The notes under the pieces: generated by a model | Databases searched by the model: none | Seen by the model: only the letters and a program-made list of their open reading frames with translations | What the model was told of the DNA's origin: nothing | Source: Clostridiales bacterium | GTDB taxonomy: Bacteria > Bacillota > Clostridia > Lachnospirales > Lachnospiraceae | Direction: 5' to 3' | Assembly (NCBI GenBank): GCA_012519195.1 | Contig: JAAYQP010000091.1 | Location: 1-36,396, forward strand | Length of the DNA: 36,396 nucleotides | Shown here: positions 3,627 through 11,981 of the stretch, piece by piece | Numbering within the stretch: position 1 is the first letter of the stretch | Layout: every line of letters starts with the position of its first letter | Position numbers and translations under genes: made by a program

Positions 3627-4196
3627 TTATATATCTAGCTTTAGCTGTACTTCTTCTTCTGCTTCTATTTTGAATTCTTCTTTTTTCTCTGGATTTAGTT
3701 CGGGAAGGGCATCCAAGGTATTTAAACCAAAATTTCTTAAGAATTCTTCCGTTGTTCCAAATAAGATCGGTCTTCCCGGAGCATCCAAACGTCCCATTTC
3801 GCAGACTAAATTATATTCAACTAATTTGTTTACCGCATGATCGGATTTAACGCCACGAATTGCTTCAATCTGTAATTTCGTAATTGGCTGCTTATATGCA
3901 ATGATGGAAAGGGTTTCTAATAATACATCGGTTAAAACATGCTTCTTGGGAACATGGGTGATTTTAATAATTGATTCATATAGTGAGGGCTTCGTACATA
4001 ATTGAAAAGATCCATCCAGCTCAATAATATGGATTCCCCTATCCTCACTTTCGTATTTATCCATCATATTATGTATAATCTTTTTTGTGGTTTCCTCATC
4101 ATGGTCGATCGCTGCTGCGATACGGTTTAGTTCCACCGCTTCTCCCATGGTAAAAAGGATTGCCTCTATTTGTGCTTCTACAAGATTAATTTCCAT
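3627..4196 (-). CDS. scpB: Segregation and condensation protein B
   Basis: Winged-helix subunit of the SMC-ScpAB condensin complex, which binds ScpA and helps compact and segregate the chromosome. The 189 residues begin MEINLVEAQIEAILF, typical of ScpB, contain two winged-helix regions (about residues 1-85 and 88-165), and include the family signature around SIIAYKQPITKLQIEAIRG. The tail is acidic and charged. The start codon overlaps the scpA stop (TAATG), with GGAGG inside the end of scpA, so the two are translationally coupled. Confidence 0.97.
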   Translation of the reverse strand: MEINLVEAQIEAILFTMGEAVELNRIAAAIDHDEETTKKIIHNMMDKYESEDRGIHIIELDGSFQLCTKPSLYESIIKITHVPKKHVLTDVLLETLSIIAYKQPITKLQIEAIRGVKSDHAVNKLVEYNLVCEMGRLDAPGRPILFGTTEEFLRNFGLNTLDALPELNPEKKEEFKIEAEEEVQLKLDI

Positions 4197-4972
4197 TAAA
4201 AGTTTGCCTCCTCCATTGGAATGATATCCTCTGCAAGATATGTGATTGTAATATCATCAAACAAACATTCCTGCTCAATTTTAATTCGACCTATCTTTAT
4301 TAGCTCTAGGATACCTAAGAAGGTTACGATAATCTCCATCCGGCTACATTGCGACTCCAAAAGGTTACGAAAGGAAAATCTTTTATGGGCTAACCCGTAC
4401 TCTTGAATCCAGATTAATTTTTTCGATAGATTAATTTCTTCTTTTTCTATTTTACCAAATTTACTTCGAATGGGATCGATCTTATCTGCCTGTTTTTTAA
4501 CGATTGATTTGTAAATCTGTTGTAGCTTGGCCAAGGTAATGTCGGATAGAAGATCTTCCACCTTGATCTCCTCTTTGTAAGCAGCGATCTCATCAGGGAT
4601 GGTTGGTTTCTTAAATAAACACCTAGAAGCATCCTGTTCTTTATCCTTTAATTCTTCTGAAATATACTTGAACATTTTATATTCCAGCAAGCGTTCTACA
4701 AGCTCCTGACGTGGATCCAGAGGCTCCTCATCCTCTTTTTCCTCTGGTGGCAGTAGCATTTTCGATTTAATGTTAATTAAGGTCGCTGCCATAACCAGAA
4801 ATTCACTCATAAGCTCTAGATTTTTTGTTTCCATTCTATTGATATAATCCAAATACTGCTCCGTTATTTCTACAATTGGTATATCATAGATATTTATTTT
4901 ATTCTTATCGATCAAATGAAGCAAAAGATCCAAAGGTCCTTCAAATACTTCAAGCTTGACTGGTATACTCAT
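4196..4972 (-). CDS. scpA: Segregation and condensation protein A (kleisin)
   Basis: Kleisin subunit bridging the SMC dimer heads in bacterial condensin. The N-terminus VKLEVFEGPLDLLLHLI and the following helical region are hallmarks of ScpA; an acidic linker and a C-terminal winged helix that closes on the SMC head follow. The track starts at 4984 (MIIHMSIP), but family N-termini match the second ATG at 4972, giving 258 residues. The ribosome binding evidence is ambiguous: AAAGG is one base from the first ATG and 13 from the second. It overlaps scpB by one base and forms a two-gene unit. Confidence 0.95.
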   Translation of the reverse strand: MSIPVKLEVFEGPLDLLLHLIDKNKINIYDIPIVEITEQYLDYINRMETKNLELMSEFLVMAATLINIKSKMLLPPEEKEDEEPLDPRQELVERLLEYKMFKYISEELKDKEQDASRCLFKKPTIPDEIAAYKEEIKVEDLLSDITLAKLQQIYKSIVKKQADKIDPIRSKFGKIEKEEINLSKKLIWIQEYGLAHKRFSFRNLLESQCSRMEIIVTFLGILELIKIGRIKIEQECLFDDITITYLAEDIIPMEEANF

Positions 4973-5064
4973 ATGAATAATCATACCTTTCTTAAAGGTT
5001 TAAAATTGCCTTAATGTAGGCACTATATTTACAAAGAGAATATAATTTAAACTCTTATTAGCTA

Positions 5065-6211: not shown

Positions 6212-6308
6212 TACCTTAAAAAAATACCTGCCATGATTTGTTTGTCACATATCGGAACTTATAAGGTCCGCTTATAACAAAACAAATATGGCAGGTGTTT
6301 TTCTAACG
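6212..6308. repeat. Palindromic repeat element, copy A
   Basis: About 95 bases running from an AATACCTGCCATGATTTGTT arm, through a core (cacatatcgg..ataaggtccg), to an ATGGCAGGTGTTTTT arm. It matches the reverse complement of the copy at 9655-9737 almost throughout, for example CACCTGCCATGATTTGTTTG and AAGGTCCGCTTAT. The outer arms seen in copy B are not clear here, so this looks like a degraded or shorter copy. It fills most of the gap between the dacF and phosphoesterase genes, both on the minus strand. Confidence 0.75.
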
Positions 6309-6369
6309 GTGGATTAGGGCTATAACTCTAGCCCCTTATATATTATATATTTTTTACAAGCATCAAGTT

Positions 6370-9556: not shown

Positions 9557-9601
9557 TTGTACTTCTTATCTTACCTAACAATGAGTTTTCTGAAATAGAG
9601 G

Positions 9602-9788
9602 CAGGCTGTTACAAATTATATAAGGGTATACTATATACCGTAATGCACCGTTAGAAGAACACCTGCTGTGATTTGCTTTGTCATAAGCGGACCTTTTATG
9701 TCCGATATGTGACAAACAAATCATGGCAGGTGTTCTTATATCGGTGTGTGAGGTATATGTATACCCATTTTAATTATGTAACAGCCCC
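9602..9788. mobile_element. MITE-like palindromic element, copy B
   Basis: A roughly 187-base imperfect palindrome. The ends read GGCTGTTACAAATTATATAAGGGTATAC and, as the reverse complement of the right end, GGCTGTTACATAATTAAAAT..GGGTATAC. The middle arms AGAACACCTGC / GCAGGTGTTCT and an inner hairpin around gcggaccttttatgtccg complete the fold. There is no room for a coding region. It sits between the convergent aroF and xerD stops and could also act as a two-way terminator. Copy A (6212-6308) is homologous in opposite orientation. MITE identity is inferred from the terminal repeats and copy number of two. Confidence 0.65.
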
Positions 9789-9794
9789 TATTTA

Positions 9795-10670
9795 TTAGGC
9801 TCTTGGATGAGTTTTTTCATACACTACTCTGCTATTTGTATAAGAATGGGTCAGATATTGCTGGGTTGTCATAATATCATTATGTCCCATAAATTCTCTA
9901 ACACTTTCTAAATCTGCTCCATTATTAAGTAAATGCATGGCGAAGGTTTGACGAATCTTGTTTGGATTGATTCCATCGATTTCTGCCGATAAAGCATATT
10001 CCTTTAATATTTTCCAGAGGCCCTGTCGGCTTAATTTCTCACCGGAAGTGTTTAGGAATAGATAATCGATATTCCTTTTATTAAAGGTTTCCTGACGGAT
10101 GTTCAAATACTGTTCTAAGGCGTTCCTTGCTTTCTTCCCGATCGGTATATTCCTTTCATTTTTTCCTCCACAGGTTATATATTTCATCTTTAAGTTAAGA
10201 TCCTGAACTTTAAGGGAAACCAGCTCGGATACCTTTATTCCGGTAGCATACAGTAGTTCCAATATAGCCTTATCACGGATGCCTTTCGGAGTATTCAGAT
10301 CCGGTTGCTGTAATAGTTTATTCATTTCCTTGGTTCCAAGAAATTCTGGCGGTTTTCTTGTTACCTTTGGGGGACTAAGTCTTTCCGAGGGGTCATTTGC
10401 TATCTTCCCGCGCTTTAATAGGAAAAGAAAGAAAGCTTTTATTGTAGAGATATTTCTAGATACAGATGCAGGGGAATAGCCCTCTTTTTCCAGATGCAAT
10501 ACATAGGAGTTAAGGTTCGTTTCGCTAATTGTCGTAACTGAGATGTTTTCCTGTTTAGCTAAGAACATACACAACTTGTTAAGATCAGCCTGATATGCCT
10601 GAATTGTATTAGGTGAGGAACCCTTTACTTCCCTTAGATATGTTATAAAATCTAATATGTTCTGCTCCAT
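9795..10670 (-). CDS. xerD: XerD-like tyrosine recombinase with altered catalytic residues
   Basis: Similar to XerC/XerD, the recombinases that resolve chromosome dimers at dif. Residues 1-90 form the core-binding SAM-like domain and about 108-285 the catalytic domain; 291 residues is the usual length. Of the six catalytic positions, K170, R240, H263 and nucleophile Y272 are kept, but the first Arg is K146 (ATGIKVSEL, normally ATGxRVSEL) and the His of HxxR is N237 (NPNKIR). Both changes are unambiguous in the DNA (AAG, AAC). The gene is otherwise intact, with AGGAGG before the ATG, and follows spoIIM as in Bacillus, where spoIIM and xerD are neighbours. It may be a weakened recombinase or a DNA-binding paralogue. 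Confidence 0.85.
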   Translation of the reverse strand: MEQNILDFITYLREVKGSSPNTIQAYQADLNKLCMFLAKQENISVTTISETNLNSYVLHLEKEGYSPASVSRNISTIKAFFLFLLKRGKIANDPSERLSPPKVTRKPPEFLGTKEMNKLLQQPDLNTPKGIRDKAILELLYATGIKVSELVSLKVQDLNLKMKYITCGGKNERNIPIGKKARNALEQYLNIRQETFNKRNIDYLFLNTSGEKLSRQGLWKILKEYALSAEIDGINPNKIRQTFAMHLLNNGADLESVREFMGHNDIMTTQQYLTHSYTNSRVVYEKTHPRA

Positions 10671-10745
10671 TTCTTACCTCCTCTTTTGAATATAGATAGA
10701 TCAGGTACTTGCGAAACATATGATTGTCTTTATCTTATCGTTTAC

Positions 10746-11360
10746 TTATGACGAAAAGAGACGGATCACCTTTTTTAGGATATAGGATCCCGCATATGCT
10801 TCTAGGAAACTGCCAATTAGTAAAGTGATTGCAAGTATAATTAATAGGAAAAAATATGGTTTTATTATATTAAAAAATCCATTAAAATGGCTCCGATTAT
10901 CATGATAGATTTTTTTACATAACTCGTAACCTTTGAAAAGGCTTATGATTACTATGGGTAAGTAAATCAGTCCATGGGGAAATTTGTAAGCGAGAACCAG
11001 TAATAAACCTTTCATTCCATAACGCATGGTTACTGCGGAGATAAAAAAACCGGTATAAAATCCAAATGCACAAATTTTTAATGCCATGTAGGGAATTCCA
11101 AGGATGGTAATACTAAGAAGCCAGAACATACAGAATTCTTTTATATTATTTGATAAAATATACCAAAAAAGCCCTGAATAGTCGATATCACTTTCAGAGA
11201 TATTGGCAAAAACTGAATTTTGATACTCTTGTAACTGTGTTAGATAGGAATCGCTAAAAATATTGGCAGATATTACACCAAAAAACAATCCACAGATTAG
11301 TAGGATGATTGCAATCTGCACAACATTAAGACGATGTAATTGTAATTTAACCTGTCTCAT
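10746..11360 (-). CDS. spoIIM: Stage II sporulation protein M
   Basis: Membrane component of the SpoIID-SpoIIM-SpoIIP machinery that dissolves septal peptidoglycan and drives engulfment of the forespore. The 204 residues carry five or so hydrophobic segments: about 15-35, 64-80, 83-105, 118-142 and 166-190, in the family layout, with the short charged N-terminus MRQVKLQLHR. GGAG lies ten bases before the ATG. It stands between the Nudix hydrolase gene (88-base gap) and xerD (75-base gap), all on the minus strand; the spoIIM-xerD adjacency is conserved in endospore formers. Confidence 0.9.
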   Translation of the reverse strand: MRQVKLQLHRLNVVQIAIILLICGLFFGVISANIFSDSYLTQLQEYQNSVFANISESDIDYSGLFWYILSNNIKEFCMFWLLSITILGIPYMALKICAFGFYTGFFISAVTMRYGMKGLLLVLAYKFPHGLIYLPIVIISLFKGYELCKKIYHDNRSHFNGFFNIIKPYFFLLIILAITLLIGSFLEAYAGSYILKKVIRLFSS

Positions 11361-11447: not shown

Positions 11448-11981
11448 TTATAGTCCCATTTTTGATTTATAGGCAAGGATAGCTGCGATTGTTTTTGCAT
11501 CAACAATCTTACCTTCGAATATCATCTTGGTAAGTTCTTCAACCGTATAGCGTTCAACCGAAACATATTCATCCTCATCCAAATTCTGTTTGGAAGGGGT
11601 TAGATCCTTAGTATAATAGATTCCTATCCGCTCATTACTGAAGGCTACCGTTGTATAGATGTCAATTAGGTGATGTGCTTCCCCGGCCTTATATCCGGTC
11701 TCCTCTTCGCATTCGCGAATTGCACAACTTTTGTAATCTTCACCTGCATTCAGTCCTCCGGCAGGAATTTCCATAGTATCCTGATCGATCGCGATACGAC
11801 TTTGCCGTACCATAAGGATTTTTCCATCCGAATCTACTGGTACCATGGCAGCAGCACCCTTATGATCAATAAAATCAAAGATAGCCTGCCTTTCTCCGTT
11901 GATTTCAATTGTGTCTTTATAATAATCTATAACGCTTCCTTTACTAACTAATTCTCTTTTTATTCTTTTGTAATGGTCCAT
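11448..11981 (-). CDS. Nudix hydrolase, probable ADP-ribose pyrophosphatase
   Basis: Hydrolyses a nucleoside diphosphate linked to another group; the closest family pattern is ADP-ribose pyrophosphatase (NudF-like). The Nudix box at residues 75-97 matches Gx5Ex7REx2EExG exactly: G-GLNAG-E, then REC-EEETGY. The preceding strand MEIPAGG is also typical of this subfamily. The 177-residue length and cytoplasmic character fit. AGAGGTG lies before the ATG. It lies between proC and spoIIM on the same strand, a common clostridial arrangement. Substrate preference is inferred from family resemblance. Confidence 0.88.
   Translation of the reverse strand: MDHYKRIKRELVSKGSVIDYYKDTIEINGERQAIFDFIDHKGAAAMVPVDSDGKILMVRQSRIAIDQDTMEIPAGGLNAGEDYKSCAIRECEEETGYKAGEAHHLIDIYTTVAFSNERIGIYYTKDLTPSKQNLDEDEYVSVERYTVEELTKMIFEGKIVDAKTIAAILAYKSKMGL

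Follow-up and report, generated by a model that had tools for sequence, protein, structure and literature searches.

The XerD recombinase (RipX, TIGR02225) of Bacillus and Clostridia has a two-domain fold, a gene linked to spoIIM, an HPRA tail and the catalytic hexad R-K-H-R-H-Y, and an active XerD is expected to come with an XerC-type companion and a Bacillus-type dif. Streptococci rely on XerS, which acts on difSL without a partner (PMC5357621). Streptococci and lactococci, where dimers are resolved by this single recombinase, also encode an XerD-like protein (NF002685) of ~245 aa that mostly reads L-K-Q-R-L-Y at the catalytic positions; the S. suis protein has been detected by proteomics (PMC4835480).

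Laboratory mutants inform on what such proteins might still do. Cre K201A and R173A bind loxP and form synapses without recombining, while Cre H289A recombines at reduced efficiency (PMC4381057). Tn1549 Int R225K, an Arg-I to Lys change, is described as inactive and has been crystallised in complex with DNA (PMC5871717). In Pseudomonas aeruginosa, a recombinase-dead XerC raised pyocin expression only modestly as compared to the deletion (PMC8609362), a hint, by analogy, that Xer proteins may have non-catalytic roles. Our literature search (XerD with spoIIM, XerD-like with scpA/scpB, Lachnospiraceae dif sites) returned nothing useful, and no description of a Lachnospirales dif site and its recombinase was found in the literature searched.

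An XerD-like gene downstream of spoIIM

The window studied here is the whole 36,396-nucleotide stretch of a Lachnospiraceae genome (contig JAAYQP010000091.1). It encodes an XerD-like protein, hereafter XerDL, in the following environment:

9795..10670, minus strand: XerD-like putative pseudo-recombinase (XerDL), 291 aa, full-length ORF with ATG start
10676..10684, minus strand: ribosome-binding site GAGGAGGTA (GAGGAGG) ahead of the XerDL ATG, assigned from the sequence
10746..11360, minus strand: spoIIM, upstream neighbour of XerDL, inherited
11448..11981, minus strand: NUDIX hydrolase gene, upstream of spoIIM
4196..4984, minus strand: scpA, which adjoins the dead XerD in streptococcal-type genomes
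3627..4196, minus strand: scpB

The intact frame, start site and spoIIM neighbourhood described in an earlier note on this DNA are therefore all present. Core-binding and catalytic domains are both recognised by Pfam, as in a tyrosine recombinase fold. The predicted structure matches XerD, with XerD 1a0p as the top Foldseek match; mean AlphaFold pLDDT values are 84 and 87 in two models, residues 264-277 around the Tyr being of low confidence in both. The closest solved relative is E. coli XerD. Separately, PDB chain 9i5v_14, a match of P0001, is labelled as the ribosome-associated inhibitor RaiA although its residues 1-297 align as a Xer recombinase, which points to a fusion or a misplaced label.

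XerDL shares with XerD its common descent, its spoIIM-linked position in Firmicutes, the two-domain fold and the HPRA tail, and is about 42-45% identical to outgroup XerDs. Unlike XerD, it lacks the catalytic Lys, Arg-I and His-II of the hexad, and its score of 300.8 bits falls below the NCBIfam TIGR02225 equivalog cut-off of 329.6. The streptococcal proteins resemble it in having lost several active-site residues, Arg-I and His-II included, while keeping Arg-II. However, XerDL scores only 68.3 bits against their cut-off of 178, is longer, and lies ~5 kb from scpA/scpB with other genes intervening, whereas in 14 Bacilli loci the NF002685 gene is directly upstream of scpA-scpB in all 14 (Tyr kept in 13/14). 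Since the losses differ from those of XerDL, they are independent; as judged from sequence, the streptococcal XerD-like proteins are a convergent precedent for XerDL.

The linkage to spoIIM raised the idea, put forward in the earlier note, that this copy was re-employed in spore formation. XerDL indeed follows spoIIM by 75 bp on the same strand, and no terminator-like site was found between the two genes. On the other hand, spoIIM linkage is also found with catalytically intact XerDs and hence reflects inherited synteny. In addition, the presence of XerDL does not depend on that of SpoIVA in 52 near-complete genomes from outside the genus (21 with both, 4 with XerDL only, 23 with SpoIVA only, 4 with neither; Fisher p = 1). 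We therefore consider a sporulation role most improbable.

At its other end, the XerDL stop codon is immediately followed by a ~190-bp palindromic MITE-like element with ends GGCTGTTACA (9600-9795, and again at 6216-6342 of the window). About 15 other similar copies are found in the genome, mostly at 73-89% identity.

Three catalytic positions are changed in XerDL

The codons of the catalytic positions are:

10233..10235, minus strand: K146 (AAG), Arg-I position, invariant Lys in the genus
10164..10166, minus strand: G169, which aligns with the catalytic hairpin Lys that was lost; most genus-mates have D or E
10161..10163, minus strand: K170, initially assigned as the catalytic Lys; genus-mates have K, R, F or P
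9960..9962, minus strand: N237 (AAC), His-II position
9951..9953, minus strand: R240, Arg-II, kept
9882..9884, minus strand: H263, His-III, kept
9855..9857, minus strand: Y272, nucleophile position, kept

The Arg to Lys change at 146, the His to Asn change at 237 and the retention of R240, H263 and Y272 are as first reported. Two changed residues is nevertheless an undercount. K170 had been taken as the catalytic Lys, a choice that an alignment of the N-terminal side alone can produce, but column 170 is not conserved, and the residue that corresponds to the Lys is D, E or G; three of the six catalytic positions are thus changed, the third being the hairpin Lys. The hairpin reads C.GKGNKER in active outgroup Firmicutes XerDs (Bacillus, Pelotomaculum, others) and C.KGNRER in Alkaliphilus. 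In most other Lachnospirales it becomes C.DGNKER or similar, the Lys being replaced by Asp, Glu, Ser, Gly or others. In the genus of the window it reads C.[DEG][KRFP].ER, one residue shorter than in other Lachnospirales, which places G169 of XerDL at the position of the catalytic Lys. Because the hairpin is shortened, aligning the Lys column is a judgement, yet no alignment yields an invariant hairpin Lys.

Position 146 is Lys in 26/26 genus sequences of the tree set and position 237 is Asn in 24 and Ser in 2, which excludes a sequencing error. Two genus-mates (L026 in G023, L030 in G029) have lost His-III as well, and their sequence around the Tyr is shorter or rearranged.

The Cre and Tn1549 mutants are changed at the same positions as XerDL, but singly and in the laboratory, while the XerDL changes are natural, combined and conserved. 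Given that K201A, R173A and R225K are inactive, the joint absence of the Lys and Arg-I makes DNA cutting very unlikely, and leaves binding or pairing possible. From these residues, XerDL has very probably lost catalysis.

Could XerDL nonetheless be a weak or partner-dependent recombinase, cutting one strand when activated, for instance by the XerS-like protein described below, through Arg-II, His-III, Tyr and perhaps K170 or K146? In favour of this, no row of our tree has lost Arg-II or Tyr, the Arg-I to Lys change is conservative and occurs in all four independent events, and Cre H289A still recombines. Against this, XerDL combines both types of change that inactivate Cre (K201A) and Tn1549 Int (R225K), and position 170 is variable. 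Such an activity seems unlikely to us.

The losses are old and nested

A tree of 125 rows, built by a quick method with the catalytic columns removed, gathers 95 Lachnospirales-type rows in one group (SH-aLRT 98), none of which has the hairpin Lys. His-II was lost on the branch joining Anaerocolumna-like sequences (R.QRHY) and the genus of the window (support 96), and Arg-I became Lys at the base of that genus (support 100). The order of loss is hence nested: Lys across Lachnospirales, then His-II, then Arg-I. Four changes are counted for each of the three residues, independent cases including L049, L140 and Paenibacillus L143, and the Lys is missing in every row in which Arg-I or His-II is lost. 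The two substitutions, which the earlier note had viewed as single-base steps, are therefore not recent, being at least as old as the genus.

Other lineages have lost the Lys separately. In Paenibacillus, the spoIIM-linked XerD reads K-S-H-R-H-Y in Paenibacillus sp. XY044 (L143) and R-G-H-R-H-Y in Paenibacillus terrigena (L157). A further Lys-less group, with Gly at this position, comprises XerDs of Butyricicoccus and Oscillospiraceae (L146, L160, L162).

XerDL is under purifying selection

In close genus pairs, dN/dS is 0.03-0.10 for XerDL, 0.06-0.17 for spoIIM and 0.02-0.05 for the XerS-like gene, values that are rough because synonymous distances are often near saturation. Such strong purifying selection bears out the view that XerDL is not an ordinary pseudogene.

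Conservation is moreover unusually distributed. One segment stands out:

10356..10520, minus strand: second half of the XerDL DNA-binding domain, residues 51-105, unusually conserved in the genus

In active outgroup XerDs, the catalytic domain is more conserved than residues 51-105 (0.62 versus 0.43). In XerDL of the genus, the order is reversed (0.65 versus 0.73). As divergence is unequal between the groups compared, the ratio of residues 51-105 to catalytic domain is the meaningful figure; it is 0.69 in active XerDs but 1.1 in XerDL. No such reversal is seen in the XerS-like protein of this genus (catalytic domain 0.83, N-terminal part 0.73). New invariant sites have also appeared in the XerDL DNA-binding domain within the genus. 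This pattern suggests that sequence-specific DNA binding is reasonably likely to have been retained. That only DNA binding was kept, a possibility raised in the earlier note, is the likeliest reading of XerDL, although the conservation of Arg-II, Tyr and, in most cases, His-III would not be expected of a protein that does nothing but bind DNA.

XerDL was not found in 27 of 52 near-complete genomes of the order outside the genus, nor in 6 of 34 genus genomes, some of these absences possibly being assembly gaps. Its role is thus dispensable. A relic in slow decay, without present function, would account for these absences and for the two genus-mates that also lack His-III and are altered around the Tyr. 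However, all XerDL sequences have open frames, the low dN/dS and the new invariant sites are not those of a decaying gene, and the median dN is lower than that of spoIIM (0.287 versus 0.382). We regard decay as highly unlikely and retain a DNA-binding role as the favoured reading.

An intact XerS-like recombinase is nearly universal in the order

The assembly containing the window (96% complete, 320 contigs) encodes three PF00589 proteins: XerDL, an XerS-like protein (P0002) and an integrase on a mobile-element contig. XerDL and P0002 are the only two complete Xer-type genes, and no XerC-type gene is present among the three proteins. P0002 (354 aa) has an intact R-K-H-R-H-Y. Of 99 genomes, 88 have a relative of P0002, almost invariably as a single copy; all 27 aligned sequences have the five pentad residues, and the Tyr is present in all 26 that cover its position. 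In G007, a genome in one contig, the XerS-like gene lies at the GC-skew switch.

Like XerS of streptococci, the Lachnospirales protein is a single recombinase of ~354 aa with a dif, here a candidate, located at the terminus and in many cases close to the gene. At 189 bits, however, it falls short of the 267 required for XerS. A recombinase of XerS size (reading frame of 330 aa or more with a near full-length match; matches outside Lachnospirales are weak) occurs in 9 of 11 genomes with a degraded XerD and in 3 of 17 with an intact one (p = 0.0015), and without two Anaerocolumna-type genomes in 7 of 9 with a degraded XerD (p = 0.0085), these counts ignoring relatedness.

A candidate dif at the replication terminus

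Comparison of the non-coding terminus of two genus-mates, G007 and G006, revealed a conserved near-palindrome, the candidate dif, whose aligned consensus is AACTATTCGCAAAACnnnnGTTTAACGAATAGTT. The site begins 9 bp from the cumulative-skew maximum in G007; in G006 it lies no more than 55 bp away. Of 99 genomes searched with the pattern, 31 have it, once in each except G030 (two), as compared to three matches for the reversed control. Relaxed patterns, which also give control matches, add G010, G018, G080, G083, G085, G093 and G096, and weak matches in G022 and G027 that may be due to chance. The distance to the local skew maximum is 1.2 kb in G085 and 5.7 kb in G096, both members of the order. 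In Anaerocolumna sp. AGMB13025, an exact match stands at 3,406,057 of 6,817,888 bp, i.e., at 50.0% of the chromosome record, and 20 kb from the XerS-like gene. This gene is 1.3-6 kb from the candidate in G034, G036, G037, G085 and G088.

The candidate differs from difSL, being a near-palindrome with another sequence and spacing. The near-universal intact XerS-like gene and the site at the terminus uphold the supposition that the dif recombinase is probably encoded elsewhere than beside spoIIM; AACTATTCGCAAAACnnnnGTTTAACGAATAGTT is probably dif and probably used by P0002. Its near-identical arms suit one recombinase acting on both sides, a further argument against XerDL as a catalytic partner.

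In the assembly of the window itself, the core dif patterns have no match. The sole relaxed-pattern site, a dif-like hairpin (2052-2083) on a mobile-element contig (L245, G000:C137, 1-5728) that encodes the integrase and an AAA/RepA-like protein, is a poor candidate and was rejected as dif. A k-mer and motif search of the flanks of the XerS-like gene returned only coding motifs of a neighbouring gene. The Bacillus-type 28-bp dif was not found in this genome, and in ten Lachnospirales gave only one match with 3 mismatches (G007), far from the terminus. As controls, exact matches were obtained in two Bacillaceae and none in Brevibacillus or two Paenibacillus, so that this pattern is not universal.

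Discussion

On balance, XerDL is likely to be an XerD that ceded dimer resolution to another enzyme and persists as a DNA-binding pseudo-recombinase without catalytic activity. Its gene is the vertically inherited, spoIIM-linked xerD of Firmicutes. In Lachnospirales, dimers are most likely resolved by one XerS-like enzyme, which would act at the terminus on a near-palindromic dif of its own. Relieved of catalysis in this view, XerD shed first the general-acid Lys, next His-II and finally Arg-I. Its core-binding domain probably continues to contact specific DNA sequences, and the protein may also retain the ability to pair sites, as Cre mutants altered at one catalytic residue do. The dispensability of XerDL and the lack of a convincing dif in the assembly of the window weigh against this explanation.

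A broader proposal is possible but rather doubtful: the whole order Lachnospirales would have swapped XerCD/dif for an XerS-like enzyme and a distinct 34-bp near-palindromic dif, the displaced XerD surviving as a conserved protein without catalysis that would bind at dif or the terminus, and the same exchange would have occurred independently in streptococci. If true, replacing XerCD while keeping a dead XerD would be a repeated evolutionary route. In XerDL, a key genome-maintenance enzyme has lost active-site residues naturally and in a definable order while remaining under selection. The candidate dif and its putative recombinase are a concrete pair for a large order whose members live in gut and soil, and both this pair and the series of losses can be tested directly.
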